Assembly (NCBI GenBank): GCA_018296165.2
Contig: JACKQL020000023.1
Location: forward strand, 248,001-312,000
Direction: 5' to 3'
Length of the DNA: 64,000 bases
DNA from: Termitomyces sp. T153
Lineage: Eukaryota > Basidiomycota > Agaricomycetes > Agaricales > Lyophyllaceae
The translations under genes and the position numbers were made by a program. This document shows positions 17,976 to 41,302 of the stretch, in pieces (the stretch's first letter is position 1; the number at the start of each line of letters is the position of its first letter). The notes under the pieces are model-generated. The model did no database searches and was not told where the DNA came from. It worked only from the letters and a program-made list of their open reading frames with translations.

Positions 17976-18029
17976 CAGTCAGTCATGTCCATGGCAGGGT
18001 CAAGCAGTTCAAAGTCACTGGATGGGAGT

Positions 18030-18420
18030 ATGGGAGGATTGACTAGTGCTAAGTCCACCTCTCATAGGTTTTTTGCTAACTGCCAAGTGATGGCAGTATT
18101 GCAATCATCCTGGAGCCTCTGAAGGATCTCCACCATCCTCTCCAAGATCCAATACCTCATTGATGCAGCCACCAGGTCCCTCTCCACAGCAACAAACTCC
18201 TGTTCAAACATCAGCTCTGCTGCCACCACGCACTCAATTGTGCTCCAAGTGAGTGTGCAAATCCAGGGCCAACACAGACACTACAAAGTCCTCACTGAGC
18301 CAGTCCAAGTTGTCCTGTGTTGCTTGGAATCAGGGGAGTTCAGTCCATTCCCCAGGGCACTAGGGGAGATATCAGAACAAAGTTAGTAAGCAACAAATTG
18401 AGGACTTACTGGAACCTCCT
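18030..18420 (-). pseudogene. Antisense accessory gene of G1b, terminal exon relic
   Basis: Minus-strand translation gives a helical segment (EFVAVERDLVAASMRYW, then a LQRLQDDCNTAITWQ-type stretch) that aligns with the last exon of the G1 antisense gene (RELEVAREELVVARAWH and YQCNCQAFLAWQ at 22100-22240). It lies downstream of G1b integrase and on the opposite strand, as in G1. Frames are broken and upstream exons are separated by insertion of copia C2 at 18517-18521. DNA just right of C2 (48566-48700, minus strand) may hold part of the preceding exon, but similarity there is weak. Confidence 0.55.
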
Positions 18421-18800: not shown

Positions 18801-19070
18801 CTCCCACTTGACAAAATTCATCCACCCATAACTAATGACTCCCAATGCATTGCTGAATTTTTTGAATGCTTCACATGGGCAGGAGAGATTTTGTAAAGAT
18901 GTCAGCTAGCATATCCTTAGTAGAGCAGTAACAAAGTTCAATTTCTTTGGTCTCAATGTGCTTGCATAGGAAATGATGCTGAATGTCAATGTGCTTAGCT
19001 TGTGAATGTGCAACAGGGTTCTGTGCCAGTGCTATGTAACCTTGGTTGTCCATGCGGATGACCATTGAGG
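18801..19070 (-). pseudogene. C2 copia RNase H C-terminal end
   Basis: The minus frame carries the end of copia RNase H: MDNQGYIALAQNPV, HSQAKHIDIQHHF and KDMLADIFTKSLL, followed by a short tail to the polypurine tract. These motifs pair with the tRNA-primed copia polyprotein C-terminus. The sequence is cut off at 19070/19071 by the G1 LTR, and the upstream RNase H and RT codons do not resume on the far side of G1. Confidence 0.9.
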
Positions 19071-20126
19071 TGCTCCTATGCTGCCTAATGCCATGCAGGA
19101 CACCTAAAAAGAGAACCTAGCACTAATCACTAGATAGGGTAGCTGGCAGTAGGAAGTTAATAGTAAAGGGCAAGTCAGTAACCATCCCAGAGAATGAGAG
19201 TGATAGTTGTGTTATAAGGTGAAGTTGAAAGGATTGCTATTGCTAGCCTAAGTCACTAGTGACAGAAAAGGGAGTAGGTGAAGACAAGAAGCATCACTAA
19301 GACAAAGCAAACTCTTAATGGTGGTGGTAGAATTAGGGAGTAAGGTAAAAAAAAAGGAAGATGGTAATAGAGACACTGAATCAAGGGGATGAATGTAAAC
19401 TGGTTGCTAGCTGCAGTTGCTAATGTAACTAAGTTGAAATAATGTCAAAGGGCACCCACAGTTGGTACCACACTAAGTCAAGGTCGAAGTTGATAAGACT
19501 TGTCACAAAGTCAAAGTCAACAGCAAGGAAGGAATAGAGTGATGAGAGAAGCAAAGTGAAATCCCAAGCTGGTAAGCTTAGACCATACTGCTTGAGGGGG
19601 GATCTATCTGAGTCAATTCTCCTCCTTCCTAGTGTCTATGTACAGGCAGTATTTATATGGTTCCAAAGTATAGTATGGGAAAGTAAGCAAATAGTCATCA
19701 CTAGTGACAGCATCTGTCAAATGTTTATGGTCTGTACAAGGTGTCAGTCTGTAACTAAGTAAAAAAAAAACCATAAGCAAAGTCTCTGACATGTAGACAC
19801 CATTCAAGTATGTTGGTCAGCTTGACAAAGGGAATGATAGCAAAAAGGTATGCATCTGGCAATATATCCATATATAGTGAGACAACGTCATTTTGTTACC
19901 AGAGTCGCTAGGATCACTAAAGTCACTAGGAAGAGTCTAGGCCTTGCTGATCTAAGCCCAAGTTCCAGGCTCCACATGCTAAAGTCCCATGCTAAGGCTA
20001 CCTCAGTCCAGATTTTGGGCTAAGCCCTGCATGCTGAGTGTTGTGACTTGTGCCAAATTTAAAATAGTCAGCTGCCACTAAGTCTGAAATGCCAAAATGG
20101 TGCTCAGTGACAACTGGGACTCATCA
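19071..20126 (-). repeat. G1 3' LTR (1056 bp)
   Basis: In element orientation it runs from TGATGAGTCCC to CATAGGAGCA. A TATA-like ATATAAATA lies at about 19650-19658 on the minus strand. The polypurine tract AGAGGAGGA is just inside at 20127-20136. Two further copies of the LTR exist: 39691-40335 (truncated) and 58870-59959 (full length, younger). Confidence 0.9.
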
Positions 20127-20297: not shown

Positions 20298-22320
20298 ATG
20301 GCCAACCTTGCCTCTCAACTTGAGAAAATCACTATGGCCCATGCCTTCCTCAATTAAGTTGACCATTTGCTCTCCATGGCCCATGTGTCTTTGGCAAAGG
20401 ATCCTTGCTTAGCAGTCACTGCCATTTTCCAGACGTGGCTTCAGTGGTTCAAGACCACAGGGAGTGGGGTTGAGTGGCCAGAGCTGGTGAACGTTGAGAA
20501 GGAGTGTTGCTAGCTCTATGAGCAGTACAAGAGTGAAGAATGGGTTTGCCCATATGATGTGCACTTTGTAAGTTCCTTTCTTTTCTTCTTCTTCTTTTAG
20601 CAACAGTTCTAACAAGATTGCTAGGCTCCAGTCAATCCCTCCTTGGAGTTTTTGCTGGACAATTTAATGGCAGGAATGATGGTAAATGCCCTGGCAGTTG
20701 CTAGCACTAATAACACCACTAAGGTATGTTAGCTTTTTGAAGATTTGTTGCCCAATGACCAGTTCTTCTTCCAGCACCCAGTAGGTGCATTAGCAGTGGT
20801 GAGGGGGAAGGAATGGAGTGAGGGCTGTGGTGGGAAGGAGAAGGCAGATTGTGGGGACATTCAAGAGTGCCCCTCTACTATTAAGGCTGTGACTGGCAGT
20901 GTCACTAGGGGTTTGGTGATGTTGCCAAGATTGGTGACAACCCCAAGGAGCAAAAGGAAGGGAAATGCTCAAGAAGAGAATGACAAAGACATAGAAGTAA
21001 GTCTTTTATTTTCACTAACTCTTGGCAATGATTGCTAAGTTTTCTTTTCAGGAACAAATTGAAAACACTTTTTCCAACAAGCAATTGGCAACACTTCTTT
21101 GCTGGCAAAAGGCCTCAACCATGGTAGATACTGGGTTGGGGGCTGGGGTGGTGTTGAAGAAGGCTCAAGGGAAGATGACCATGTCACTAGAGAAGTGACA
21201 AGAGTTCAAGTGCATGCAAGGAGCAGTAAGTCACTTAGTGGTTGTTTCTTGATTAGTCACTAACTTTTTCTTAGTGTGATAACTGCTGGGCCAACAATGA
21301 CCTAGAGGGCTGCTGGTACCCAACAGGGGCCCAGCCCTGCTATCATTGCAATAGCACAAGGAAGAGCTGTTCACACAGTGGACAGTTGTTGAGGAGCACT
21401 GGCAGCAAGTTTGCCAAGAAGATTGCGGCGAAGGCAGCATTGGTAAGAAATGCAAGGGCTTTTGTGGAGCAACAGAGGGAGTTGAAGAGGAGAGGGGAGC
21501 CTATCAAGGTCAAGCCCTCTAGCTTGCACCTGCCAACATCACAAGGGGGGGTGGCCATTGGAAGTAGCAGGGTTGTTAAGGGGAAGATTAGGGAGCTGGT
21601 GGAGAGTGACGAGGGCAATGGTGATCATGGCAGCAACAATGACAGTGACAACAATGTGCCTCTGGCACAGAAATGACCCACAAGTCCCGCCTTAGTTGCT
21701 AGCACTAAGTGACCATGAATGGTCACTAGCAAGGAGGGTGAGGGAGATGTGGAGATGAGGGAGATGACTCCCTTAGTGGTGGTCACTGAGGTTGAGCAAG
21801 AAGCAAGCAACATGGAGGTCAAGAGTGAGGAGGAGTTTGAGGCTGCCCCAGTCGCCATCAAGGAGGACAAGGAGAAGGACAAAGGGGCAGAGGAGACCAG
21901 AGTTCAATGATGGGTAAGTTGTTTGTATTTGCTAATCTTTTTGATTGCTAACTGCTTTGCTAGGGGACCTGGAGTGACATGCCATTGTGCCAGGTTGGCA
22001 ATGATGAACTGGAGTGGCTAGGCAAGGACTTGACATGGCTGATGCTACTAATGCCAGTAGTGTTGCTAGAGGATTTTGATGAGAGGGCAGCAGGGGTAGA
22101 ATGGTGGTTCCAGAGGGAGCTGGAGGTGGCAAGAGAGGAGTTAGTGGTGGCAAGGGCATGGCATGCTGTCACCAAGCAAACATTGGCAACACTGGCGGGA
22201 TATCAGTGCAACTGTCAGGCCTTCCTGGCCTGGCAGGAGGAAAACAACATTAGAGAGGGAGATTGGGAGAAGAAGGATCCAGGGGAGGTGCCTGACAACA
22301 ATGCTGACCTCAATGCTTAG
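20298..22320 (+). pseudogene. Antisense six-exon zinc-cluster gene carried by gypsy G1
   Basis: Opposite in strand to G1 pol. Exons 20298-20567, 20625-20723, 20775-20996, 21052-21225, 21275-21913 and 21964-22320 join in phase 0 throughout to 587 codons. Introns are 49-57 bp with GTAAGT or GTATGT donors, mostly CTAAC branch sites and TAG/CAG acceptors. Exon 5 opens on a six-cysteine cluster, CDNC, then C13, then CYHC and a final C (C-x2-C-x8-C-x8-C-x2-C-x6-C), followed by a basic Ala/Lys/Arg stretch, an acidic coiled segment and a helical last exon. Seven in-frame stops (TAA 20355, TAG 20511, TGA 21196, 21674, 21710, 21716, 21908) inactivate it, mostly as CpG decay would. The cluster resembles fungal zinc-cluster DNA-binding motifs, so a nuclear regulatory role is inferred. 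Function is unknown. Confidence 0.75.
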
Positions 22321-22759
22321 TGATGGTCACCTCCTATAGATATTTTTTTTTTATAGTTTTTCTATAGTGGACACAGACTAGCTCCCTTAAGGGGCCCCAA
22401 AATGTCTCATATTTACAACAGATCAGCAACTTTGAGAGAAAAACAAAGAAAAGCAAAATCAATAAGGCGGTATGCACTAGTGACCATTGCTTGACACTAG
22501 CAATGCTTGAAGGCAAACACTCAGTAAATCATCATAGCAAATTACCTCTAGAGGCATGCTGAGTGTTGGCAACAGAATGGCCAAGCACAGCATTGAAAAC
22601 AAGAGAATAGTAGAGTGTCTATGAAAGTCTTCTTAACTAAAATAATAACAAGGTAAGAGTAGCAAGAACAAAGGGACTTAATGTTTTTGATGATTTTTCT
22701 GGATAGTAGGAATGAGGGTAGTGAGAAATTTAGGCAGAATCAAGAAAAATTGCTAGGGC
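22321..22759. other. G1 spacer between convergent pol and antisense gene
   Basis: Noncoding DNA where G1 pol (-) and the antisense gene (+) end toward each other. It includes a CTCCCTTAAGGGGCC palindromic box at 22380-22395 and a T/A-rich run at 22340-22352. Parts align with 17640-18029 of relic G1b, which shows it is a fixed part of the family. Confidence 0.6.
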
Positions 22760-25700
22760 TTAGTGAAATGTATATTTGCAATTTTCTTCTTCACTGGCAA
22801 TGTTGCCAGTATCATTGTCATTTACAAGGTTGGTTTGCTCTAGTTCTCTAAGGTGTGAGGTATTGATGTCAAAGGCATTGCTAGGCACTGTTATGTGTTC
22901 TCTAGCAAAATAAGGGACCAAACAAAAGGCTGCTACAGGGTGATGCAGTACTGAACCATCTAATTTGCAAAGAATGTAGGTGCCTCCATAGTTATGGAAG
23001 ATTACCACCAGTGGGCCTAGGTAATGAGGCTTCATTTTCTTGTTATGCATCACCTCAATTCTAGTGTTCCTCATTAGTATGAGATCACTGGTTTTGAAAT
23101 TGTAATTGTGGATCGTAGCAGCATGTTCTGCTTCGAAGTGAATGGCAGCTAGGCAACAAGCGCTAAGGACATTACTGTGAAGGCAGTCAAGGTCCTCTGG
23201 GTGACATTGAAGATCTATTGCTCTGTGGGCTATGAGGTCAGTTGTTGACAACAGCAAGTTTGGTGGTGGCTGCAAATATGTTGCTTCCACTATGTCGGCC
23301 AGCAGAAGAGGGTGGGTACCAGTTGTCACATAGTAAGGGGAGCAACCCATTCACTTGCAAACTGTAATATGTTCTGACCAAAAGACAGAGTAAGTAGCAG
23401 TACTCCACCTGGACTGATCACCATCAACTGCTTTGAAGAGGGCTTGGCGGACATTGAAATGGGGTTGCTCAACTACTCTGTTGGCATGCTTATTGTAGCC
23501 AGAAATTCAAATATAGTGCAAGTTGTACTTCTTCACCAAGTAAGTTACCACCTTCATAATTGGAGGTCCATTGTTGGTAACAATTTTGCTAAGTGCTCCC
23601 CAGTGACAGATAATGTCCTCATATAGCCATTTAGCAATAGCTTCAGTGTTCTCCCTGGTGAGCATACAAAACTCAGGGTAATGAGTTAGCAAACAATATC
23701 CTTGGATGATATATTTAAACTTATTGGAGGGTGGCATGAACATAGTGTCAACATATATCTTGCTGAACAAGGGCTTGGGCATAGTGACAGTTGGCAGGAT
23801 GAAAACTTTAGCCATCTGGTGTACCTGACAGAGGTGGCAAGTCCAGATGTACCATATGATATCAGTGCTAACTTGAGGCTACTAAAATTGTTCTAGGAGG
23901 GCTGAGTGGGTAGCAAAGAGGCCTCTATGTCCCAACTCATCATGCATGGCTTTCAAGACTTGCAGGCAACTGGCAGTGGGAACAAACAGCTTGTGAGCAC
24001 CATCCCAATTTCTTCAACAAAGTTTGCCTCCCATAATGAAAACATAGAGGCATAGCAAATAAATGTGGCATACTCATTGTCACTAAGGCCTTCAGGTCTG
24101 CCGAGATTGTGAAGCCATCTCTTGACTAGATGTATGTGGGTGTCACTGGCAATAGCTTTAGCACTGCAGGGCACATTGCTATATGTGGTGGTGCCATCAT
24201 CTTGGAGAGGCTGAATATTGTTGCTGATTGCTAATCATGGTGCAGTGTCTGTATCGCTGGCAAAAGTCACTAAAGGTTGCAAGTAAGGGTACTTGACCAG
24301 AGGAGGTAGGCAATGGGAAGCTGTGGAGACTTGGCAAAGGAGCGGTAGTAGTAGCTGAACTTGGTGAATGAACCTGTGCAAATGATCTATCCAATCCTCA
24401 TAAACAGAGTTGTTGCTATTGTCAACTGGCAGGTCACCAGGCTGTGGTGGGCATCACAAAGAACCATTGGGGCCATGGAAAGTTTCCTTGACATGGACCA
24501 GCTTGAAGTGAAACATTAAAATTGCCATAATCCAGCAGTTCATGCTAGTGAAGGGCTGGATGTCAGGGTTCTGAAGCATACCCTTAATGTAGCAAGCATT
24601 GACTTCAATGATGAGGTTCCTAATGCCAATAAGGTACATCTGCAAAGCTTGTAGTGCTTGATAAAGACCATAAAGTTCCAACTTAGGCTGACTGAATTTG
24701 GCTTCTCTATTGTTTAGCATAATCAATCCAAAGCAATTGTAGTGACGTTCTTTGTGATTCTTGCTAGTGCACTGGCAAAGGTAATGACTGACCACTATAT
24801 ATGAAGTGTCAACCACTAAGATGACAGGGTCAGGCAATTCATAGTCAATAGGAACTAGGGGCTTAGTGTCTTGTAAGGCTTTCACAAGGTCACATTGGGC
24901 ATTTATCTGGTTGGGGCCAAACTCAAAAGGGATGCCAACATGAGTAAGTTTTGTTAAGTTGTTGGCTTGGTGTGCAAAGTTCTTGACAAAAATTCTAAGT
25001 ACCCCTACTGTACCCAGAAATGCTCAAACTTCTGATAGTGACTTGCAAAGGCCCCACTGCTCAATTAGGGCTAAGCAACTTTTGTCAGGGATATGACTGT
25101 TAGGAGTGCAAACATGGCTGAGGATCTTGAAAGTAGGTGCACATATAATGAGTTTGTGGCCAGAGAAGGTGCCACTGCAGTATTTCATTTGCTAGAAGAT
25201 CTTGTTAAGAAGTTCAAAGAACTCCCATAGCGCTAGGTGAATGTGTGAGTTAGCAGGATGCTTAGTGGGTTTACCATCAACAATCCTTTAGTCCTTGGGT
25301 CCTTTAGCACCAACATCATTGATAAAGCTGAGCACATTATGGGGGATCTCTGGCTGCAAAATGAAGGTAATGTTGTTGTGAAATATAGGCACAGAGTTGG
25401 TCCATCCCATCAGCAAGGTTACTAAGCAAAGAGTGCCAAACAGAGTCTGGAATGTCATGACATCATGCTTTGTCAGGACAAAAGGTGGCAGGTTTGGATT
25501 GAGTGGAGGGATTGTAGCTAGTGGATTGCCAATAATCTGGCACTTGATGTGGAAGTCCTCGCTAATGTGGCTAGTGACCAGTTTGGTCTTCATGGTGACA
25601 GGTTTGTACTTCTTCTTCACCTGTACTCCTTTTCACTTATGAGGTTCATTAGCAACAAATTGAGTGGGGAATGGAATGTTAATGTAGGTAGGGGCAGGGT

Positions 25701-27935
25701 TTGTATCATTTGTATCAAGGAGTAAAGTCTGTCCAAGAATCAAGGGATTGGATGTATCAGTAGAAACAAGATAGGAATGGGGTAGAAGGGACAAATCAGT
25801 AAGGTCACTAGCAGTAGTGTAAAGGTATGCTAGAGCAGGGTTGGTTGATGTGTCAGAATTAGCAAGTAAAATGTCTTTGTCCAAATCACAAGAAGCTATA
25901 CAAATTGCTAGACCAGTTGAATGGTCATAGCTGATAATGATTGCTATGTTGCTATCTTCTTTGTCAATGCCTTTGGCAATGAAAGCAATGGGGTGCTTCA
26001 GTTTCAAAGTGAACATTTTGTTGGTTGGTTCTTTTGGATTTGCCGCATGGAAAGGTAGGGATAGTGCACTATTGGCCAGTGTTGGGATCCATGATTGTTA
26101 TTGTAGTCTTGACATTGCTAAGCATGTTGACCATACTTTGGGTTAAAACATCAAAAGGGCATCCAAGGAAAATATTGTAGGTGGGGGAATGTAAAACATG
26201 AATCTGGAGATAAACTGTTATGTTGCCAATAGTGCATGGTACATTCTGAGCAAGTCCTAGCAATTGATCCATAGTACCATTAGTGCTCTGCATATTCAAA
26301 ACGATGTTGGGGTTGTGAGATAGCCCTAGATTGCTAGTGATTTCTGTGGGCATTGAGATTATCTGGGAGCCACTATTGTAGATGCATTCCACTTCCTCTT
26401 TGTTGTTGATCAGCATCATGATGGAACAAAGTGACTGAGAATCCTTAGCAACAGTGAGCACCATAGGCTCTTCTCCATGGGGTAGCAAATCAATATAGGC
26501 TTTGATGGGGTTGACAGATGTGAGGGGTGCCTTGTCTGAGGTAAGTCCCTTAGCGGTATTGGTGTTGGATCCAAGTGAAAACTGGGGTGCTTTAATAGCA
26601 AAAGTTGGCAAAATATCTTCAAAAATGTTGCTGGAGTCCTGTACTGTGTTAGCGCTAGTGCCTACTAGTTGTTTGGGCATAACTGCTGTCCTAAATTGAT
26701 TTCTGATGTCCTGGGATACTGAGCAAAGTTTGCCAACCAATACTGTAACCTTTGTGCTTAAAACCCATTCAAAGACCAATTTGGACTGCTTGATGTCATA
26801 AATGGGTGGCATAGTTTGATATGCACTGTCATTAGACCCATCAGGGGCAGCAAAATTCCTATTAGTGGGTGGGACATAGTGACCAGGGATGCCAGAAAAT
26901 GGGTGGATGGGAGGTTGAGTGATGGGTTCCTTAGCAATGGGCAGCTGTTTGTTTGTGACATTTTGTTCAGGTGCTTTGCCTTTGTCTGCAGGCTTAGCAG
27001 CAGGAGCTGGAGTAGAATTGGAAGGGGATGAAGTTGTTGGGGTGTTGCTAGTCAAGGGTGCTGCCTTGGAGGTATTGTTTGCTGGTCAATATGCCATGTG
27101 GGGAACTTGTACACCATCAAACTTTTTGCCATGTTGCTTGAGTGCAAAGAGTTCACATTCCAAAGCCTCAATTCATTCTTCCTTGCTTAGCGCTTGGCCT
27201 GTAGTGACATCCTGTTGCATTACCTCATGAATTAGAGACTGCTGCATAGCTGCCTGCTCTGGGTCTGGGTTAGTGTTAGAAGAGAGTCTGCTAGTAATGA
27301 TTTGTCCTGGATTAAGTCTGTGCCATTCTTAAATGCATTCAATATATAACCACTTGCCAAAATAATTGGGAATCATAGCGCCAGATGGTAAAATGATCTT
27401 GCCTTCAGCATTACAATGGATCTTACCCTGTTGAATTATTTGCTCCAGTTTCATACAAGTGCTGCGGACCATAGTGTGACCTATTTCACCACAAAAGTGG
27501 CAAGTGCTATTGGAAAACTGTTGATGAGGTTGAGCATTACTGTTGGTCAAAAGAGCTTCCAGCCATTCCAGGGCACTGATGATTGCTGTGGTTGTCACTA
27601 ATTCCAGAGTTTCCTGCTTAGGCATAGGTGACAGAGGAACCGGTGTGCTAGCAATTGTCAATGAAGAAATGCCACTGGTGGTATTGCTGGTCTTAGTCAT
27701 TGAGGTGTCTGTTCCCTTTAAAACCCACTTAGCACCTTTGAAGACTTGGTTGACATCATAAGGGTCCTCAGAATGATGGTCAGGAAGAGTGATTTTGAGG
27801 TGGTGAAGAATCTTAGACCATAGTGATGTAGGGATACCTTGTTGGAACAAGCAACATTCCTCATTACAATAGAGTTTGCTGTTAGTGAGTAACCATCTGG
27901 TGATATGTTGGAAATCCCTGTAGTAGTCCAAGAAC
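22760..27935 (-). pseudogene. G1 gypsy gag C-terminus and pol, degenerate
   Basis: From high to low coordinates: gag end with the zinc knuckle CHFCGEIGHTMVRSTC (about 27500); a linker and protease region whose catalytic motif reads YNSGSQ instead of DSGSQ (about 26370); a KKYKPV block and RT remnant PPFVLTK joined directly to TFQTLFGTL, showing that the RT N-terminal half is deleted (about 25450); the RT active site read as FINDV; RNase H with VVDTSY, LNNREAKF and PKLELYG; the integrase core IYVDTMF with VTNNGPP; and a C-terminal domain ending near 22760. Frames shift near 26040 and 23900 and many stops are present. Motif order and the gag-protease linker fit the agaricomycete gypsy group with a DUF4100-type region. 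Confidence 0.88.
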
Positions 27936-27940
27936 CTTCC

Positions 27941-28936
27941 TATCACAACCCGCTCCCTAGACACTGTTCCCAACCCCTCCCAAGTTCCCGTCTAACTCCC
28001 CTGAACCCCGCCCACACTTTCGCGCCCACACTGGATAACTCTGACACTTCTCCGGCAAACCCCAATGACAACTCCAACACCCTCTCCATAGCAATCAACA
28101 CTCCCCCTGAAACCTTCCCCCACCGTTCCTGGCCATGTCATACATTCCCGACCCCCTACCCTAGTTTACCCAACCTGTCCCGGAGTATCACGACGTCCTT
28201 GGAGCGGCCCACGCCCCCAACTGATCCCATCAGAATACCACCGCAGCCCGCCCTTGGATCATACCCGACACCTGTCAACTCCGCACAGCTCTGTCGACTC
28301 CCGCTGCCATATCCACCGCCCTCCAGGGTACCCAGTAGTTGGTATATAAGTCGTAGAATAACTCCTCGAACTTTAGTCTTGATATTACATTTACCAGTTT
28401 CCTATGTTTTGTCTCTTGTCTCGTCTCTGTTTCTGTTTTTAAGCTTTGAATCTATCTTTTTCCTCAGTCTCGTCTCGTCTCCATCTTGTCTCGACTGTAC
28501 ATATTTCCTTTGTTCTTCTAAGTTCCTCTTGCTCCCTACATCAGTACGAACTCCATGCATGCGCCATGACCCAAACATTCCTACAACAACTCTGACCCTT
28601 GCTCCCCACTCGGCCCAGGACCCATCAAGCTCTGGTAATCCCCTATCCAACTCCGGTCCCGCCCCCATCACTCAAGAAGCCTCCGCTCACCCCATAATCT
28701 ATTTGTGTGCCCACGAACTAGCCCTGACACCCACCCTGGGTCAACAACCAATACCTTTGGTCTTAGACTTCTCCGAGCCATTCAGAACTTGCTCGGGCCA
28801 TTTTCCCTAGAACCCCCTCGCAAGCCTCCCCACCTCCACTCCAACTCCGGATGCCTGGTTATAAGCGCAGGACATTGCGTCCACCTAGTAAGGACTTGCC
28901 AGTGTACTGAGCCCCCATTGTCAGCGGAACCTGACA
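27941..28936 (+). repeat. G2 5' LTR (996 bp)
   Basis: It begins TATCACAACC, where the partner LTR has TGTCATGACC (decayed from TG), and ends CGGAACCTGACA. A TATATAAG box is at 28343-28350. The internal sequence TAATATCAAGACTC follows directly and is shared with G4 at the same place, so it is the likely primer-site region. Long frames across this LTR are not genes. Confidence 0.95.
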
Positions 28937-28968
28937 TAATATCAAGACTCCCCCTTACCCCATTCTCA

Positions 28969-31470
28969 ATGTCTGTGTTTAACCCCACGTACAACCCCGC
29001 CGGTTACCCAACTGATGCCTATGGCCAACCCCTACTGGAAAATCCCTATGCCCCCTTCTACCCAGGTCCCTTTGCAGATCAGTACGTGCCCCATCACTGG
29101 ACTCCTGACCCCAACCAGGCATTCTACGCCTCCTCCATCAGCCAGGGAGTACCCCCAGGCTGGCGCCGCCCTCCCGCATTCCATGCTGATGGCAATAATC
29201 CCCGTATTAACCCCAGAGAATACTCTGCAGCACCCCCCAACCCCGCCTACCTTTCCCCCACCCATTACTATGCGTATCCAATCCCCGCTGCAGCCCCAGT
29301 CCCTCTGGAGCCCATGGATAACTATTCCCCCCCGCCCACCGTTCGCCACTCAAACTCCTCCTTCTCCTAGGCAGCAAAGGGTCAAAGCCTATGCCCAGCA
29401 ACACGACGAAGTCCTCCGCTTCCTCCACCTGTTCCCCGTGGAATTTGCAAGGCATACCTGCACCCTCCTCACCAACCTAGGCTACCCCGACGCCTCCACA
29501 ACTCCAGAGGTCTGGGCGGATCGACTCCTTGACTTCCATGAACGCTACCTGCAAGGGAACCTCCCGGAGAATATGCAAGGCACCCTGGGCATCAACGATA
29601 ACTTACGGAACGAGCTCCGTGCCTTGGTCAAAGAAATCCACACTAGCCTGAACCCCCACCCCTTTGAAGACCCTGCTCCTTCCACGTGCAATGCGAGGAA
29701 CCCATCAGAACATGAAACGAAGCCCCATCTTCTGTTCCCCGTCAGCAGGAAGAACTCAACGCAGCCTCCAGCATCTTGAGGAACCTCAACCCCACGGGGG
29801 GGTTGTTCGACCAACCCACCGCCCACACCTTGGGCTCTCTCCGCCCGGCCCCGGGCCAGTTCCGTGCCCAGTGCCTTCCAAACCTGGGACCAACCCGCCG
29901 CTCCCGAACTCCGTTCCCAACAACCACCCCTACGCGTCGATGACAACAACCGGACCCTCTCCTATATCGACAAGCCAGGCAACCCCGCTGATGAACATGC
30001 CCCGCGCAACGGACCTCAACGAGACCGACCCCCCCACTTCAATCTCCGTGTCCCTCGTATCAATGCCCCTCCACCCTGTCCCAATGCCCCAGTTCCCCCG
30101 CAACAGCCCATGGGCCCCGGGGCACCCCGACCCCCTTTTTTTGCCAACCCCTCTCGTCCTCCGCCTGCCCCGATGCCTAATCCCCCCACCAACGCCAATT
30201 ATTTCGGACCCCCGACCCCCAGAGGACCCCCTCCCCCTTGATGGGCCCCAGGACCCGCCCCGGGTAGCATGGGTCAAAACCCCAGTGGAGGACCACCCAA
30301 TGGCAGGCTCCCTGGAGGATGGGGCCCAGCAATGGACAACTTTCCCCCCCAGCGCGGAAACGGAAATCATTACTACTACTACTACAACGCCGGACCCCCA
30401 CCTCGAACTCAAAATTCACAGGACAATACCTGCGACACACTGGCCCAGGAGGGCAAACTCAACATCCAGAAGCCTGAACCCTTCACTGGCCACGACCCTT
30501 GGAAGTGGCGAATCTTCCTGACTCAGTGTTTAACTATGTTCCAAGCTAAGCCCATCACCTTTCAGCTTGAGAGCTCACGAGTAGCCTTCGCCGCATCATA
30601 CTTACAGGGCATCGCCTTTGACCACTACACCGTGCTACTCCAGTTCGACCCAAACAACCCCGTACTCTCCAATTGGCTCGCTTTCACCCAAGAGTTCTCA
30701 AGTAAGTTTGGCGTCTTTGACACCGTAGCGGAGGCGGAGGAAAATCTCTTCAACCTCCAAATGCGCGACAATGAACACTTCATGATCTTTATCGTACGAT
30801 TCAAACAAGAGGCCTACAAGACCGGCTGGAATTACAATGCCCTCCGGTTTGCCCTCCATTGTGCCCTACCCCAACGGATCAAGGACGTCCTTCGCCTCGC
30901 ACCCAAGCAAACCACCTAAACTATGATGGGTACAAGGCGCTCGTTACCCAGGTCAACCAACGTTACTGGGAAGACCGCAGCGAAAACACGGCGCCCCGGA
31001 CCTCTTGGAACACCTCCGGTAACACCAACTGGCAGGCTGGAGCAACCAATGGCATTTGATCCTCAATCCCCGCTAACCCCGCCAACCCCACACCCCGCTT
31101 CCCTCTGGGCCAAGGAGTCCCCAACACCAACCCACCCCCGGGGCAGTGCCCACCCGCCCAGCTCAATGCCGCTGACCTCCATGACACCCCAGTACCCCTG
31201 GATACCAACCCCGATGACCACAACAACATCCTGGACCCTGCCAACAATCAAGAAGCCCTATGCACAAACAGAATCCAGGACAGCCTGTAGATCGACGTGC
31301 CGGAGGAAATGCAGGAGAAATGATGGAAGGAGGGCGTGTGCATCCTATGTGGTGAGCAGGGACACTTTATTCGCAGTTGTCCTAAACAACAGGTGATGGG
31401 ACGCGCCATGTGGATGATTGATGGAGAGGACTGTAACTACCAGTTCACGGAAAATGAGTCAGCAGTTTAG
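28969..31470 (+). pseudogene. G2 gypsy gag
   Basis: Starts at ATG 28969 with a Pro/Tyr-rich N-terminus (MSVFNPTYNPAGYP) that matches the G4 gag at 60629-60988. A frameshift in the C-run near 29325-29340 moves the reading frame, and TGA codons at 29777 and 30239 interrupt it. A retrotransposon-gag domain follows at 30450-30915 (EPFTGHDPWKWRIFL, ASYLQGIAFDHY, RFKQEAYKTGWN). Another shift is near 30900, and a CCHC knuckle CILCGEQGHFIRSC stands at about 31340-31385, after more stops. It would form the capsid of the virus-like particle. Confidence 0.85.
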
Positions 31471-34400
31471 GTCTGGGAGACACACTAGACCATGGACCAT
31501 ACCCCAACGTCTTCTCCGCCCCAGCCACACTCCTCCGCGCAACAGTACTCGCCCCGAATAATCCCCCAGCACACCTCCCCTCCCACTCATCCACAAACCT
31601 CCTCCTCTGCACCACTCTTCCCTTCACCAACAAACCCGTCCCCACACTAGTCGACAGCAGCGCCACCAATAACTTCATTGATGAATCCCTGGTGGCGCTT
31701 GCCCCACAACCTCTCCATTGCCTCCCCACCCCGATCCTCCTCAAACTCTTTGACGGAGACTCTACCCCAGCAGGAGACATCACTCATTGCCTAGAAACAA
31801 CCATGACCTTCACCGACGGACAACAGCAAGAACTCCGACTACTCATCACAAAATTACACCCCTCTGCCCCTGTTGTCTTAGGGTTCTCATGGCTCCGCTC
31901 CACCAATCCCCGCATTGATTGGCCCAGTCTCACCCTCCGCCTCGACTGGGACAACCCCACCGACTCCGGGCTGGTACCCTTTGATGTCTCACCCCCCTCT
32001 GAGAACTCCGAGACCACAATCGACCAACCCCGGACCCCTCTGCAACTTCGCTCTAGGTCTGCACGGTTGTTAGTCATCTATGTCTGACTTGGCAACTCGC
32101 TCAAGGTCCTCCCTGCCCTCATAGACAGTGGTGCCTCCAGTGTCTTTGTCAGCAACCAACTCAATCTCCGACACAATGACCTCGACAAACCCCTCGAGCT
32201 CCAACTCTTTGATGGGAGCCCCACCACGACAAGAATCACGCAGTACCATGACAACACCCTCACCCTCAATAATGACCTGCAATTCCAGGCCCGACTCCTC
32301 GTTACCCAACTACCCCCGTCAACCCCAATCATGCTCGGACTCCCATGGCTGCGAAATGTCAATCCCGACATCAACTGGAAGAACCTCACCATGCAATTCC
32401 CCGGCCCCGAAGCAAGCTTAGCAGCCACCATCCACCTCCACCTCCAGTCTATCTCTGATCTCAACGTTCCCCACCCCGACACCATCACCTCCAGAACGAC
32501 TCAGGATTCCCCAACCCCCGACGCCAACCCCGACGGAGAAAGAAGCACAACTCTGTCTCGAGCACCCTTGGACAAATTACGACGGCTGCCCCCCAACATA
32601 CCCCAAAATTGGTATAAGGGCCCGCGCTACCCCAACCAGCAATGCCCAAAGCCCCTGACCAACCCCGATGTCACCCCGGACCCAACTGTTACACCTACGG
32701 TACCCAACCCTGTCGACCCCGGAGACCTTGACATTAAAATCATCGGCGCTGTCCCCTTTGCATGCCTCCTACGAGAAGGCACCCCCACCTTCCAGTTGCA
32801 AGTCACGCCAGCCCTACCCAAGGAATACCTCTGCGCAGGGACTACCGCGCCAGAAAGCAAGATGGAGGAACAGATCCTATCTGAAGTAGTTCCCCCGGAG
32901 TATCATGAGTTCACTAACATGTTCTCCGAAGGAAGTGCCAAGGAACTCCCTCCACACCGCTCCTACGACCACAAGATTGACCTCAAAGAAGGTACCTCAC
33001 CCCTGTTTGGCAAGATCTACAACATGTCCGAAATCGAGCTCCGGGCCCTGAAGGAATACCTCGACAACATGCTCGGCAAAGGTTTCATACGCCCATCGAT
33101 CTCCGCGGCTGGCGCCCTGGTTCTGTTTGCCAAGAAAAAAGGCGGATCCCTCCGACTCTGTGTGGACTATCGGGGACTCAACAAAGTCACCAAAGAGAAC
33201 CGGTACCCCCTCCCCTTAATCAGAGACCTTGTTGATCGTCTTCGCAGCGCCAAGATTTACACAAAAATCGACCTCCATTCCGGCTACAACAATGTCCAGA
33301 TCGCCCCGGGACATGAATGGAAGACCACCTTTTGCACCTGCTATGGCCTCTTTGAGTATCTTGTAATGCCCTTCGGAATGACTAACTCCCCCGCCACCTT
33401 CCAGTACTTCATGAATGACATCTTCCATGACATGAACGATGTTTTTGTCATCATATATTTGGACAATATCCTGATCTACTCAAACTCGCCAGCGGAGCAT
33501 TTGGAGCACGTCCGCCGTGTCTTGGAATGACTCTGAGAATACCACCTTCACGCTAAACCTGAGAAGTGCTCCTTCCACACGACGGAAGTCGAATATCTCG
33601 GAGTCATTGTCACCCCCGACGGTGTGCGCATGGACCCCGCCAAGGTCAACACAATACTCAACTGGCCCTCCCCACGGAACGTCAAGGAGGTACAGTCATT
33701 CTTGGGGTTTGCTAACTTCTATCGCCGCTTCATCAACAACTACTCCGGGATCACCAAACCCCTCAACCAACTCACATGGAAGGACACCCCTTGGGACTGG
33801 GACAGCAAGTGCCAGAGTGTATTCCTCCTCTTGAAGAAGGCCTTCACCTCCGCTCCGGTCCTCCGCCACTTCGACCCCTCCCTACCAATCGTGCTCGAAT
33901 GTGACACCTCCGACTACGCTATCGCCGGGATACTCTCCCAGTCGAACTGGGGGGGCAAGGATCTCTGCCCCATTGCCTTCTACACCCGATCAATGATCCC
34001 AGCGGAACTCAACTACAATATTTACGACAAGGAACTCCTTGCAATCGTTGAAGCCTTTCATCAGTGGCGGGCCTACCTCAAGGGGTCCCCGCACTGCATC
34101 CAAGTCTACTCCAATCACAATAACCTGAAATATTTTACGACCATGAAACAGCTCAGCTGCTGCCAAACTTGATGGTCCGAAACCCTTTTGGAGTACAATT
34201 TTACTATTCACTACCACCCCAGGTGACTCGGCGCAAAACCCGACACCCTCACTCGAAGACCTGACGTGTATCCGAAGAAATCATTCAAAACCAAACAAAA
34301 TGCATTCAACCATTGAGTGGTAATCCCACCCAAACATCTACATGCTGTGCTGATTTTAAATGAAGAAGGAATCCTCCAGCAAATCAGGAATTCACCCCCG

Positions 34401-35792
34401 GACCCCTTCTTCAACCAGCACGACCCCCGCAACAACCCCGACGAGTCGAGCGTAGACAACCCCTTTTTGCTATCCCCGGACCACCGCCTCCTGCTCTGGA
34501 GTGGACAAATCTATGCCCCGGACCACAAGTCCATTCGCCTCGACATACTCCGACAGCACCACAATCACAAACTCTGGGGGCACCCAGGAATTTGTAAGAC
34601 CCTTCAACTCATCTCCTGGACTTATTTTTGGCCAGGAATGAAGAAGGACATCACGCAATACGTAAGGGCCTGTGAACCCTGCCTACAGGCCAAAGTACCC
34701 CACCACCGCCCCCACGGATTACTGAAACCCCTCCCCGTTGGTCGCCGCCCCTGGTCCTCAATATCAATGGATCATATCGTCAAACTCCCCGACTCTGAAG
34801 GTTTCGACACAATCCTCATTGTTGTCTGCCACCTTACTAAACAAGCCCTCTTCATCCCCTGCCACACCACTGACACCGCTCCGGACTTCGCCAAACTATT
34901 TCTTGAACACGTATTCTCCAAACATGGACTTCCCGATGACATCGTCTCCAACTGCAGACCCCTATTCATATCCCATTTTTGGCAATCACTGTGCAAGGCG
35001 CTCAAAATCAAAACCAGCCTCTTTACTGCCTATCATCCGGAAACCAACAGACAAACCAAACACGTAAACCAGATGTTAGAACAGTATCTTCGCTTCTACA
35101 TTAACTATTTACAGAACGACTGGCATGCGGAGCTTCCCCTCGCTGAATTCACCTACAACAACATGCCTCACTCCACCACTGGAGTTTCCCCCTTTTACGC
35201 CAACAAGGGCTACAATCCCCGACTCACACTGTCCCTCAAAGACATCCCTTCCCACATTGCCCATGAGGTTGCCGAGGACCTCCGATCCCTCCACCAATTC
35301 CTCCGGGACGAGATCAACACTGCCAACCAAGCCTACTCCAAGCACACCAATACCCATCGCAAGCCGACCCCTGACTGGCCCCCCGGCACCTTGGTCTGGC
35401 TCGACCGGCAAAATCTCAAGACCTGGAGGCCTTCCATCAAACTTGACCACAAACGCCTCGGCCCATTCAAGGTCCTCTGGAAGGTCTCCACCCACGCTTA
35501 CAAGCTCGACCTCCCTCCGGGCCTGAAGGGCCTCCACCCTGTGTTCCACGTTCGACTCCTTGAAAAGCACGCTCCAGTCCCCTTCCCCAGCCAACACCCC
35601 AGCCGACTGTCCCCCATTGAAGTCGAGGACAAGTATCACTACGAGGTCGACGAGATCCTCAACTCCTGGATAGTCTGCAGCCAACTCCAGTACTTGGTCC
35701 GCTGGAAGGGCTACGGACCTGAGGACAACACGTGGGAACCTCAAAAGAACCTTGACAGAGCCCCCAATGAACTCCGGGACTTCCACCGATGA
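31471..35792 (+). pseudogene. G2 gypsy pol with two protease domains and chromodomain
   Basis: A single frame with only TGA interruptions at 32085, 33528, 33534, 34170, 34224 and 34314. It opens with two tandem retropepsin-like domains: TLVDSSATNNF (about 31650) with LGFSWLRSTNP, then ALIDSGASSVF (about 32120) with LGLPWLRNVNP. RT follows with LRLCVDYRGLN, MPFGMTNSPATF and an active site reading YLDNILI where family members have YLDDILI. RNase H has LECDTSDYAIAG. Integrase has HHNH..C..C, core MDHIVKLP, then SNCRPLF where SDRG is expected. It ends with a chromodomain ([29 protein letters not shown]). The chromodomain marks it as a chromovirus. Confidence 0.93.
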
Positions 35793-36051
35793 AATCCTGC
35801 CAAGCTCTGGAACCCCCGGGACTGATCCAACACAGATGGCAGTAGTGGGCATAACCCCTGCCTCTGGGTTCACCAGGGATTCAACTCCCACCAGTACTCT
35901 CCTACGTGTTTTCACTTACTCCTCTCTTTGCTCTATCTGAAACTTCCCACACTCAGCAGAAGGACCAGAGAATGTATAGCAACAAGCGGTGAATATACAT
36001 ATCGAACAAGAATAGACAGAGAACAATTCAACAACGGGGTCTGAGTTCCCC

Positions 36052-37733
36052 TCACTCCTCCTCCAACCCTAACCCTGCTACCCTTCCCACCATGAACACT
36101 TCCAACTGCGCCACTACCGTTGCCAGAACCTTGGGTTGCCCGGGAAGCAGTTCCCCCATGTCCGTCGCCATCTCCCACCACGCTCTGGGGTCTGCCGTTG
36201 CCCTCCACCAATGCCCTGCCAACAGATGCCCCATCTGCGTAACCCCTTGACCCAACTCCAGTGGAAGGTCCCCAGGCATCCTTGCCAACCCATCATGGAT
36301 GGACCCCAGCGCTGCCGACGCTCTGTTGAGAAGGATGCGATGCTCCCGGGCCCAGTCTATGGAAATGGAATCAGTGCTTAGGAGATGGGAACCACTCATG
36401 AAGCACTCCTTGCTGGCCCAAGGCCGCCTCGTTGGCAAGCCATTCCTCCCACTGCCGCGCCCTCTCCGCTGCCACCCGGACTTCCCCAGTGCTGGAACCC
36501 TGCTGATCCTCCCACGCCCCCAAGCCTCCCGCCTGCTGCATCGCCACCTCTGCCACCTCTGCCCGCGCCTGCAAATGCACTGTCCACACCTCCAACTCCT
36601 GCAGATGAGACAATCACTCCATGGCAGTCCCCATGGCAATGTCCTTGTCCTTCCGCGCCAAGTCCCGTTCCCTCCAAACCTTGTCCAGCTCCTGTCAAGC
36701 CCCGTTCCTCTCCTCCCATACCCCCTGAACCTCCTCCTCATGTGCAACCAACAACCGTTCTAAGCTCTCTACCCAACACTGCAGAAAGGCCTCCGCAACT
36801 GACCACGACCTATCCGCAGACTGCTCAATGGGGGCTCCGGATGTAGGGGAGTATACCGCGGAACCAGGGGGGCCCCCCATTACCTGCTCGCCCCATGCCC
36901 GCTTACTGGGACCTGCCTCAGGTGAAGGGGATGCTCTCCGTTTCCCTTTCTCCTGCATGGAAGGGGCCCCCTCCCTCCATCCACCCTGCGGGGGCCCCAC
37001 CTTCATGGCAGGCATGCTAACCCGTTCCCCTTCCCCACCCCCAGAGCCCCTCCCCGACACCCTGCCCTTCCGCCCTTCCTCCAGTTGCGCTGCAACCCAA
37101 TCTTGATCCCACCCTTGCTCTGCCGCGATGCAGGCGGCATGCCAACTCAGGGTAACGGAGCACTTCTTGTGCCGCGAACGGCACAGAAGGCACACCGACA
37201 TATCCTGCTGTACCCCTGATGCAGGCGCCTCAAATTCACACTGCTCCCCTCGTTGGGTGCAAGACGCACACTGCAGGGGCATGTTAGTCCGGGAAACATA
37301 AAGCTAAGTAACCACTCACTGGGGCCGCCGCCTGACACCACTTGAAGGTGGGGGGACCCCTCACCCGACCCACTGCCTCGGCAAACTGCTCCAGCATCAC
37401 CTCCGCCTGTACCACCCTCGAACCCTCTGGAACAAGCTGGACCACCCCCAGACAAATGCCAGACTTGGAGTGCGTAGAAGGGGCCACGCCTGCCAGTGGC
37501 TGCATCACATCCACACCAGACGATGGCCCTGAGGGACCTGCCATGGCCACAGACAACTCTGCGAAGGACCGATCAGTACTCTGGGGTATATGAGACAGAC
37601 CGCCCTCATGGCTACAGTACATTGCCTCGATCCGACGGCAATCTTGGTGACCCTCTGAATCCTCGGAAGATGATGGCTGGGATGGCGGGGATGGTGACCT
37701 AGATGTTGTGGGAGAATAAGCTGAAGAAGACAT
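36052..37733 (-). pseudogene. Antisense zinc-cluster gene carried by gypsy G2
   Basis: Runs opposite to G2 pol. Exon 1 (37733-37320) starts MSSSAYSPTTSRS, Ser/Pro-rich, with a DCRRIEAMYCSHEGG block. A 49-bp intron (37271-37319, GTGAGT donor, CTAAC branch, CAG acceptor) follows in phase 0, and the next exon begins at the first Cys of CASC, then C-x6-C, x15, CLLC-x6-C. In G1 an intron stands at exactly the same point before CDNC. A Lys/Arg/Ser-rich part, a long coiled-coil (about 36700-36400, with QELDKVWRER and LQARAEVAEVA) and a C-terminal part with WAREHRILLNRASAALGS ending at 36052 follow. Stops at 36695 and 36614 (both TGA) and one frameshift near 36400 break it. It is probably a nuclear DNA-binding protein, by inference from the cluster. 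Confidence 0.75.
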
Positions 37734-37946
37734 TACAACAAGCTGGGGGACTCCTGAGTGTGTCCACTCCTTTTAATAACTTAGGAAGGAGCCCCTGGCA
37801 AATGGCGGCCGCACCTCGACTTCCTTCCCCACGCCGCCGCCACTCGCTGTGGTTTGATCAATATTGATCAACTTTGATTCCCATGCCCTACTGATCCCCA
37901 ACTTGCTCCCCGCATCTTGAGGGTCTCGACGCTGAAGGGGGGGTAA
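37734..37946 (-). promoter_or_regulatory. Promoter region of the G2 antisense gene with 18-bp palindrome
   Basis: Lies between the 3' LTR and the antisense ATG. It contains the perfect palindrome TTGATCAATATTGATCAA at 37854-37871 and, nearer the ATG on the minus strand, a TATA-like TTATTAAAAGG (about 37770-37785). The G4 copy (58391-58614) aligns along its length and keeps CAATATTGATCAA and CATTAAAAGA. The G2 polypurine tract AAGGGGGGGTAA also lies here, at 37935-37946. A protein-binding role for the palindrome is inference. Confidence 0.6.
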
Positions 37947-38932
37947 TGTCATGACCTGCTCCCTAGACACTGTTCCCAACCCCTCCCGAGTTCCCATCTA
38001 ACTCCCCTGAACCCCGCCCACACTTTTGCGCCCACACTGGATAACTCCAACGCTTCTCCAGCAAACCCTGATGACAACTCCAACACCCTCTCCATAGCAA
38101 TCAACACTCCCCCTGAAACCTTCCCCCACTGTTCCTGGCCATGTCATACATTCCTGACCCCCTATCCTAGTTTACCCAACCTGTCCCAGAGTATCACGAT
38201 GTCCTTGGAGCGGCCCATGCCCCCAACTGATCCCATCAGAATACCGCTGCAGCCTGCCCTTGGATCATACCCGACACCTGTCAACTCCGCACAGCTCTGT
38301 CAACTCCCGCTGCCATATCCACCACCCTCTGGGGTACCCAGTAGTTGGTATATAAGTCGTAGAATAACTCCTCGAACTTTAGTCTTGATATTACATTTAC
38401 CAGTTTCCTATGTTTTGTCTCTTGTCTCATCTCTGTTTCTGTTTTTAAGTTTCAAATCTATCTTTTTCCTCAGTCTCGTCTCGTCTCAACTGTACATATT
38501 TCCTTTGTTCTTCTGAGTTCCTCTTGCTCCCTACGTCAGTACAAACTCTGCGCACACGCCATGACCCGAACATTCCTACGACAACTCCAACCCTCGCTTC
38601 CCGCTTGGCCCCGGGACCCATCAAGCCCGGGTAATCCCCTATCCAACTCCGGCCCCACCCCCATCACTCAAGAAGCCTCCGCTCACCCCATAATCTATTT
38701 GTGTGCCCACAAACTAGCCCTGACACCCGCCCTGGGTCAACAACCAATACCTTCGGTCTTAGACTTCTCTGAGCCATTCAGGACTTGCTCGGGCCATTTT
38801 CCCTAGAACCCCCTTGCAAGCCTCCCCACCTCCACTCCAACTCTGGACGCCTGGTTATAAGTGCAGGACATCGCGTCCACCTAGTAAGGACTCACCAGTG
38901 TACTGAGCCCCCATCGTCAGCGGAACCTGACA
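37947..38932 (+). repeat. G2 3' LTR (986 bp)
   Basis: Begins TGTCATGACC and ends CGGAACCTGACA, then TSD CTTCC. It matches the 5' LTR apart from transitions and a short deletion in the T/C-rich part after the TATA box (near 38480), where one CTCGTCTCGTCTC-type repeat unit is shortened. Confidence 0.95.
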
Positions 38933-38937: not shown

Positions 38938-39690
38938 TAAAGTCACTAAGCCACTGTTGAAAGTCTGGTTGACAAGTTGTTCCAAGTTGCCAAGGTTATA
39001 ACAAGTGCTAGTGTCAGCATCAGGGTACAACCTGAGCACTGCCACCTTCCATTCCTGGTAAGTGTAAGGTTGGGGAGCATTGTTGCTGATAATAATGTTG
39101 TTGCTAAATTTGGGTAAGCCAAGCCAAGTTTCTGCCATGTCATAAGAGACATATCAAGATGCGTACTCCTTCTTCTGAATGTCATCAGTGATACTGCAGT
39201 CATCGAAAAGGTATTTCAGTTCTTTAAAATATTGGGGGAGTTCCCTGGGGTGACTCTCATTCTATTTAGGTGCAGTTGTGTCATTGCATGGTGGCATTCT
39301 AACATGCCAAGTGGTGGGGTCATTGTTCATATTAGTGATTGTCAAGATTGGTGAAGGAGGGGGGTTTATGGGTGATGAGGGAATGGATTAGGCAGCTGGG
39401 AAGAAGATAGAGTTGGTAGGAGTCAAAGGAGAGAGGGGTGCATCAAGAAAACTTTTGATAAAGGCACCAGGAAAATTGGCAAGGATTTTGCTAATGTCAC
39501 AAAGGTTTCTAGCAGTTTTGAGTTCATCAGCAAGAGGTCTAGGCTGGGCTGCTGGCAAAGAGTGTTGAGGGGTTGAAGAGGAAGACAGGGGTGATTCAAT
39601 AAGGTCTTCCAAGCAACATTTTGCTTGAGCTCTAGTTTCTGGTGGAATGGTTAACTTTAAATACCCCTCACAGTGGGCTCCAAAATGATG
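38938..39690 (-). pseudogene. G1 gag N-terminal half
   Basis: This is the part of G1 gag on the far side of G2. Going down in coordinates it carries a start region after the LTR (YLKLTIPPETRAQA, then LCDISKILANFPG) and a second block with MTWQKLGLAYPN, YTYQEWKVAVLRLYPDAD and LGNLEQLVNQTF. This type of gag is typical of the agaricomycete DUF4100-region gypsy group. Removing G2 and one CTTCC copy continues it in frame into the sequence at 27935. A shift near 39150 and stops are present. Confidence 0.8.
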
Positions 39691-40335
39691 TGCTCCTATG
39701 CTGCCTAATGCCGTGCAGGACACCTAAAAAGAGAACCTAGCACTAATCACTAGATAGGGTAGCTGGCAGTAGGAAGTTAATAGTAAAGGGCAAGTCAGTA
39801 ACCATCCCAGAGAATGAGAGCAATAGTTGTGTTGTAAGGTGAAGTTGAAAGGATTGCTATTGCTAGCCTAAGTCACTAGTGACAGAAAAGGGAGTAGGTG
39901 AAGACAAGAAGCATCACTAAGACAAAGCAAACTCTTAATGGTGGTGGTAGAATTAGGGAGTAAGGTAAAAAAAAAGGAAGATGGTAATAGAGACACTGAA
40001 TCAAGGGAATGAACGTGAACTGGTTACTAGCCACAGTTGCTAACATTGCTAAGTCAAAATAATGCAAAAGGGCACCTGCAGTTGGTACCACACTAAGTCA
40101 AGGTCAAAGTTGATAAGACTTGTCACAAAGTCACAACAGCGAGGAAGGAATAGAGTGATGAGAGAAGCAAAGTGAAATCCCAAGCTGGTAAGCATAGACC
40201 ATACAGCTTGAGGGGAGATCTATCTGAGTCAATTCTCCTCCTTCCTAGTGTCCATGTACAGGCAGTATTTATATGGTTCCAAAGTATAGTATGGGAAAGT
40301 AAGCAAATACTTGCCACTAGCGATGCTGTCTGTCA
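39691..40335 (-). repeat. G1 5' LTR, truncated (645 bp)
   Basis: Matches the 3' LTR from TGCTCCTATG onward but stops at about 40335, lacking roughly 420 bp that would be its U3 beginning. It is joined directly to C2 integrase codons. The truncation probably arose in the same deletion that removed C2 RT. Confidence 0.88.
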
Positions 40336-40952: not shown

Positions 40953-41302
40953 TGTAAGGGCAACCTCCAGAGCAATGGATTAGAGTCATGCAGCTAGCAG
41001 AGGGGAATCCAAAGTATATTAGCAGAGTAGACAACAATACAAATTAGTAACTAATCACCTAGTAGAGGGAAATCCAAAGAGAACAAGTCTAAGGATTCCC
41101 GCTGCTTGGTGTGGTGCATCAGCAGGCAGCAGAGGCATGGGAACTACTGTACAGGTGACCAGAGCTACTCCTAACCCTAGGGCAATGGTTGCTGAGGTAA
41201 TATGGAGAACTCTGGGGTGCTAGAAAGAGCCCCAGAGACATTGAACAAGCTGTGGAGGTGCTGGAACTAGTCACAGAGGTTGGAAATGGAAGTCCCCTGA
41301 CA
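40953..41302 (-). repeat. G3 3' LTR (350 bp)
   Basis: Plus-strand ends are TGTAAGGGC and CCCCTGACA. The polypurine tract AGAGGGGGGGTGA (minus strand) lies directly inside at 41303-41315. Confidence 0.95.

Follow-up and report, generated by a model that had tools for sequence, protein, structure and literature searches.

What is an intron-bearing gene doing inside gypsy retrotransposons, running antisense to the genes of the elements themselves? The question is raised by a 64,000-nt stretch of the Termitomyces sp. T153 genome (contig JACKQL020000023.1, positions 248,001 to 312,000; hereafter the window), in which each of two gypsy elements, G1 and G2, has an additional gene that follows pol, precedes the 3′ long terminal repeat (LTR), and is antisense to pol. 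This arrangement had been described in an earlier note made from the letters of the window, and its position and orientation were borne out. The evidence given below makes it very probable that the gene is a protein-coding, spliced accessory gene of the retrotransposon that is kept by selection.

Structure of the antisense genes in G1 and G2

The G1 gene, flanked by pol and the 3′ LTR and read in the opposite direction to pol, has six exons, all with lengths that are multiples of three, and five GT..AG introns of 49–57 nt, all in phase 0:

20298..20567, +, exon 1, 90 codons, two in-frame stops
20568..20624, +, intron 1, 57 nt, GTAAGT..TAG
20625..20723, +, exon 2, 33 codons
20724..20774, +, intron 2, 51 nt
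20775..20996, +, exon 3, 74 codons
20997..21051, +, intron 3, 55 nt
21052..21225, +, exon 4, 58 codons, one stop
21226..21274, +, intron 4, 49 nt, immediately ahead of the first cysteine
21275..21913, +, exon 5, 213 codons, four stops; six-cysteine cluster, acidic and bipartite basic stretches
21914..21963, +, intron 5, 50 nt
21964..22320, +, exon 6, 118 codons plus stop

All five donors listed earlier (20568, 20724, 20997, 21226, and 21914) were recovered, and the earlier model of six exons, five phase-0 introns, and about 587 codons is close to the 586 codons plus a stop obtained here. Comparison with open relatives sets the acceptor of intron 1 at 20624; an alternative acceptor at 20600 was rejected. 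The cysteine spacing is C-x2-C-x8-C-x8-C-x2-C-x6-C. Because it has seven in-frame stops (two in exon 1, one in exon 4, and four in exon 5), the window copy is a pseudogene. Judged by eye against open relatives, six of these stops occupy the place of arginine codons and one that of a glutamine codon, a pattern suggestive of decay by C-to-T changes, for the most part at CpG sites.

In G2, the order is pol stop (35792), antisense gene (36052–37733), and 3′ LTR (from 37947):

37320..37733, −, exon 1, 138 codons, open
37271..37319, −, intron, 49 nt, GTGAGT..CAG, phase 0, immediately ahead of the first cysteine
36404..37270, −, beginning of exon 2, with two stops; holds the six-cysteine cluster, a basic stretch, and a region resembling a coiled coil
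36052..36390, −, end of exon 2, in the window copy not in the same frame as its beginning

This copy is also decayed: it has two stops, and its frame is broken between 36404 and 36390. In open G2-type relatives, exon 2 is a single exon of 405–410 codons (7 of 12 copies examined); because these relatives read through it, the G2 gene has one intron, and a second intron considered near 36390 was rejected as the frame break itself. The antisense genes proposed earlier are thus real, with the correction that both window copies are pseudogenes and that the G2 gene has one intron. The cysteine spacing, taken from an open relative, is C-x2-C-x6-C-x15-C-x2-C-x6-C.

Selection on the reading frame

The ratio of nonsynonymous to synonymous substitution rates (dN/dS) was calculated as pairwise medians over 18–20 copies per exon, with decayed copies included and stop codons omitted. 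Median values for the G2 gene were 0.41, 0.38, and 0.34 (the end of exon 2 was queried separately, as though it formed a third exon), and 0.40 for the integrase. For exons 1, 3, 4, 5, and 6 of the G1 gene they were 0.19, 0.38, 0.21, 0.25, and 0.21, and 0.22 for the integrase (17–19 integrases). Third codon positions were the most variable in all eight exon sets. The comparison suggested in the earlier note thus gave values far below 1 and close to those of integrase, indicating purifying selection on the antisense protein at about the integrase level. The signal in G2 is not borrowed from pol, because gene and pol do not overlap.

Between two open young families of G1 type, represented by copies L051 and L052, whole-gene dN/dS was 0.147 (0.03 in exon 1 and 0.35 in exon 3), with 126.7 synonymous to 74.3 nonsynonymous changes; the binomial probability, computed on 117.7 synonymous to 70.3 nonsynonymous changes, was 4e-30. 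In other pairs, dN/dS was 0.15–0.46 in four exons of L052 and L055, with exon 6 saturated, and 0.16–0.29 between the G2-type lineages of L013 and L049/L050 (both decayed), where dS exceeded 1 and was near saturation.

Copies in the host genome and linkage to integrase

Copies were counted in the one 72.4-Mb host assembly (307 contigs, window included). At least 150 were found of each type (the best 150 of 1437 candidates scored for G2 type and the best 150 of 267 for G1 type), many of them open, as expected of the many intact antisense copies 3′ of integrase for which the earlier note had asked. An integrase lay on the opposite strand and on the expected side at 19 of the 20 best G2-type and 17 of the 20 best G1-type loci (window copies included).

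Among the matches listed, 77 of 87 G2-type integrases had the gene 3′ and antisense, mostly at a distance of 909–930 nt (range 876–2089), and 111 of 150 G1-type integrases had it in the same arrangement; the gene was on the same strand as the integrase in 1 of 87 G2-type and 2 of 150 G1-type cases. The matching used the best-scoring listings, so a missing partner is not evidence of absence. Ten G2-type integrases had no listed partner, and all five that were inspected hold the gene, several in broken form. Likewise, 39 G1-type genes had no listed integrase, and six of nine loci inspected have one (present at L031, L033, L036, L038, L047, and L055; not found at L035, L044, and L046).

In young families, an open gene accompanies an open pol (1284–1394 codons around the integrase). 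Seven G1-type copies score identically, with an open cluster exon of 213 codons and an open 1285-codon frame around the integrase; a second G1-type set has mostly a 212-codon cluster exon and a 1284-codon frame. The G1-type copies L051, L052, and L053 are open through all six exons (581–582 codons). Among the 12 G2-type copies examined, 7 are open in both exons (L011, L013, L017, L021, L023, L025, and L026), and the other 5 have a stop in exon 1 or an exon 2 that ends early.

Several gene copies stand at near-equal distances from contig starts (about 1650 nt in C10, C112, C181, C241, and C289, and about 2200 nt in C9 and C89), as if assemblies had broken inside young elements.

Conservation and survival of the introns

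In the G1 type, GT..AG borders were kept in 17 of 22, 19 of 23, 17 of 21, 19 of 21, and 12 of 16 copies measured for introns 1 to 5, and in the G2 type in 21 of 22. These counts omit copies whose match ends far from the exon edge or whose gap falls outside 15–150 nt; for intron 1, the exon-edge rule alone was applied. The other 5 of 22 copies of intron 1 have AT..AG borders, and its lengths are 50–57 nt; those of intron 4 are 48–53 nt. Donors in L051, L052, and L053 are GTAAGT, GTACGT, or GTGAGT, and acceptors are YAG. Three of the five introns differ in length between L051 and L052 (51/52, 59/57, and 52/50 nt), with the exons still in frame.

Intron 2 of the G1 type is 51 nt long in 19 of 23 copies, and L051 and L052 agree at 46 of its 51 bases. 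Past an in-frame TAG it resembles conserved protein (LFEDLSPNDQF-FQ); alternative splicing or a recent gain of this intron is possible.

Introns are present in recently amplified families. The genome was also searched with a fused-exon query, for which an intronless copy would be expected to rank first. No clean intronless copy was found among the eight listed rows that span most of both exons, six of which hold 33–51 extra nt at the junction (one of them L062). Three candidates for intron loss were rejected. Two of them, L046 and L061, are the remaining two rows, which lack such extra nt: in L046 (C38) one deletion takes the end of exon 4 plus most of the intron, and in L061 (C52) both exon 4 and the intron are retained, a 21-nt deletion lying within exon 5. 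In L062 (C9) the intron is shortened. Other listed rows pass the junction by some residues with no extra bases. One of these, L011 (row 39–99), still holds the intron, and the remaining short rows are taken as reading on past the junction in the same way.

Because no clean intron loss was seen among the rows checked, nothing in them points to reverse transcription of the antisense mRNA. The introns would outlast retrotransposition because genomic RNA, being sense, should not allow them to be spliced out; the earlier proposal that antisense orientation protects them is thus supported by the rows checked. The introns form a strand-specific record, in which a precise intronless copy, if one existed, would be proof that the antisense mRNA is reverse transcribed, and the case illustrates the long residence of an intron-rich gene in a retroelement.

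Protein features and kinship of the two types

Six conserved cysteines, the trait of the Pfam family Zn_clus (PF00172), occur in both types. In the G2 type, each of the six places holds cysteine in 22 of 22 copies; in the G1 type, the counts among copies covering each place are 23/23, 23/23, 23/25, 24/25, 23/25, and 25/25. A loose six-cysteine pattern arose in 0 of 20,000 shuffles of either protein. Both proteins contain KR[PR]ASPS...KR, a bipartite basic stretch such as nuclear proteins have. No other Pfam domain was significant in the full-length proteins, part of the G2-type protein, compared with PDB sequences, had a sole match at E 0.9, and a scan of viral contigs gave one pattern match and no relative.

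Are the two genes related? A global alignment was discarded because it misaligned the cysteines. Profile–profile comparison gave E 0.17–0.19 (probability 0.3%), with the cluster alone as the aligned region. Both types have a phase-0 intron directly before the first cysteine and KRxASPS..KR after the cluster, and because intron place and motif are shared, the G1 and G2 genes are likely homologous, the profile comparison alone being nonsignificant. Separate acquisition of unrelated genes followed by convergence, which would agree with that comparison and with the different cysteine spacings (2-8-8-2-6 vs. 2-6-15-2-6), seems unlikely to us, given that the sole stretch to align is the cysteine cluster and that both types have the intron and the motif. 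The single gene that the earlier note saw as shared by gypsy families thus stood in position, orientation, and introns, and its homology is likely, not proven.

Relics and the element that lacks the gene

Of two relics reported earlier, the one in G1b was confirmed and the one in G4 was supported, both with revised limits (formerly 18030–18420 in G1b and 58615–58869 in G4):

18005..18353, −, G1b relic of G1-type exon 6, E 1.4e-9, 3′ of the plus-strand integrase relic 16942–17502
58699..58851, +, G4 relic, matching exon 1 of the G2 type at E 3.9e-5

A control search of reversed DNA gave one match, at E 0.002. The gag of G4 is on the minus strand (60984–60631), in agreement with a relic antisense to G4. 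A piece resembling the G1 LTR plus its adjoining stretch lies at 58864–59918, directly beside the G4 relic; for this reason G4 appears to be composite.

G3 had been said to lack the gene, and our results agree. Its integrase ends at 41422, and an LTR-like repeat (40951–41302) begins about 120 nt on; no six-cysteine cluster was seen by eye in the plus frames between them. The integrase of G3 is 38% identical to that of G2, whereas G1 and G2 integrases are 23% identical (E 2e-4). The gene is thus present in the very divergent G1 and G2 lineages, yet missing from the nearer G3.

Promoter, proposed role, and alternatives

A TATA-like box precedes the G2 gene:

37769..37779, −, TATA-like TTATTAAAAGG, ahead of the ATG of the G2 gene and outside the LTR (which starts at 37947)

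In the window G2 copy and in all seven close copies shown, the sequence TTATTAAA(A)GG begins approximately 45 nt upstream of the ATG; two distant G2-type copies have TCATTGAAAAGG in place of the box. In the G1 type, AATAAAA is found in 8 of 12 copies shown, and in the window copy it lies 77 nt before the ATG. We suggest that a promoter of its own, situated between its ATG and the 3′ LTR, would drive the gene; that a protein of about 545–585 amino acids would enter the nucleus by means of the KRxASPS..KR bipartite basic signal; that its cysteine cluster may bind DNA or chromatin of the element; and that the protein may act in trans, regulating expression or persistence of the element. That it is a nuclear regulator acting on the element is, on these motifs, quite possible, at somewhat less than an even chance. 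More tentatively, the gene could be a transferable antisense module: an intron-rich nuclear cysteine-cluster gene moved between, or kept in, gypsy lineages whose integrases are approximately 23% identical, missing from the nearer G3, and acting in trans for persistence of the family, as a switch like HBZ of human T-cell leukemia virus type 1 (HTLV-1) or as a silencing antagonist.

Several observations weigh against an accessory gene kept by selection, or limit what can be said of its role. Both window copies are decayed, G3 elements manage without the gene, and all copies come from a single species. Expression and splicing are deduced from the sequence alone, and nuclear entry and DNA binding are predicted from motifs alone. 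The fused-exon result covers the matches listed, with most rows judged by coordinates alone. The G2-type protein matches Zn_clus at E 0.0048 and 17.4 of the 21 bits required, below the curated cut-off, and the G1-type protein has no match to this Pfam family, so the zinc-cluster class given in the earlier note does not hold by the PF00172 cut-off. Finally, L061 (G000:C52:216200-216900), a copy outside the cysteine counts, has lost its second cysteine through the 21-nt in-frame deletion and adjoins a pol frame that is open for 1284 codons (its integrase at C52:214438-215010); because of this copy, an intact cluster is not required in cis in every copy, which hints that the protein may be supplied in trans.

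Alternatives that dispense with a selected protein fare poorly. Antisense transcripts of LTR elements can act as RNA, through double-stranded RNA or small interfering RNA (PMC7264820), and the frame would then be incidental; this is highly improbable here, given dN/dS values far below 1, the third-position excess in all eight exon sets, the conserved cysteines, and splice sites retained despite intron indels that are not multiples of three. The introns and the fungal-type cysteine cluster do suggest an ultimate host origin, but a recently captured, hitch-hiking host gene is very unlikely to account for at least 150 copies per type in a fixed place, in two very divergent lineages, with integrase-like dN/dS, although these copies come from best-scoring listings and no search was aimed at a stand-alone host copy. 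The protein might be an antagonist of host silencing, as VANC proteins of Arabidopsis are for VANDAL elements, or a factor steering integration or nuclear import of the preintegration complex, and its nuclear-looking basic signal and cysteine cluster would fit these roles as well as they fit a regulator. Because no chromodomain was found by Pfam in G1, that element could use another targeting factor; G2, however, has both a chromodomain and the gene, a pattern that targeting alone fails to explain. We regard these roles as real alternatives, at less than an even chance, and on these data they are not separable from LTR regulation.

Comparison with known antisense genes

Antisense genes at this place are known in plants and in Botrytis, so the remark of the earlier note that it knew of no standard gypsy component like this one is not supported in that form. 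The plant genes (aORF-3R) include gene23 of maize Grande, RIRE2 of rice, Retand of Silene (with the TRP28 domain), and PvRetro13 (PMC7264820, PMC11963269). They are antisense to gag-pol, lie between pol and the 3′ LTR, and are conserved in most copies (PMC7264820). GENE23 localizes to the nucleus and a promoter lies upstream of gene23 (PMC7264820, PMC11963269); DNA binding is predicted for TRP28 (PMC11963269). The genes described here have the same location and likewise run opposite to gag-pol; among the matches listed, they are present in most copies and conserved like the other proteins of the element. They differ in that the plant proteins are TRP28 and SMC, in plant hosts, and the words "intron" and "zinc" do not occur in the main texts of PMC7264820 and PMC11963269. 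According to these two reviews, it is unknown what the antisense accessory genes of LTR retrotransposons do. With many open copies, protein-level selection, and introns as strand tags, the genes found here make that function directly testable.

Resemblance to a fungal gene, brtn, can be judged by description only: both cases combine a fungal chromodomain gypsy element with an antisense gene. The gene was reportedly found in Botrytis cinerea and Sclerotinia sclerotiorum by Zhao et al. in 2011. It is an additional antisense gene of Boty-like gypsy elements (PMC8365987, PMC7264820), and a Boty-like fungal gypsy element with a chromodomain is described (PMC4227169). In the literature searched, mostly outside subscription journals, brtn was the only fungal antisense gypsy gene noticed, and no multi-intron cysteine-cluster antisense gypsy gene was found. 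Antisense accessory genes are thus already known; what is new is a multi-intron six-cysteine gene in very divergent gypsy lineages that is missing from a nearer one.

Two further comparisons bear on the protein. HBZ is a bZIP protein with a spliced mRNA. The HTLV-1 gene is antisense and encodes a nuclear regulator (PMC11963269), with its antisense promoter inside the 3′ LTR (PMC7264820). The gene described here is likewise antisense, and its exon-intron structure, as deduced from sequence, and its basic motif would fit a spliced nuclear regulator; it differs in its cysteine-cluster protein, in having up to five introns, and in a TATA-like box outside the LTR. Zn(2)-Cys(6) factors (PF00172) share the six cysteines and the two CxxC pairs, with a weak score for the G2 type, but both types fall short of the cut-off and the G1-type spacing is off. 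By eye, and in contrast to Gal4, most of the basic residues fall within the second half of the cluster. Zn_clus is a domain of fungi, and 21 matches in the assembly exceed the Pfam cut-off; gene predictors may label the antisense genes as host zinc-cluster factors.

Elements of the window

G1 is a minus-strand gypsy element with integrase zinc and RNase H domains by Pfam. Nested in its gag region is G2, a chromodomain gypsy element with LTRs 92.6% alike:

27941..38932, +, G2 element, with the 5-bp target duplication CTTCC on either side
34317..35792, +, G2 integrase with chromodomain; integrase zinc, SH3, and chromodomain domains
19066..19693, −, G1 3′ LTR, a repeat of 39686–40309 (95%), ends approximate
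39686..40309, −, G1 5′ LTR, from repeat comparison
22760..23350, −, C-terminal part of the G1 integrase, encoded opposite to the antisense gene; integrase zinc domain farther upstream in the same frame

A copia-type element was also observed at 9577–14719, with an RVT_2 domain at 10096–11967 (−) and flanking direct repeats 96% alike.

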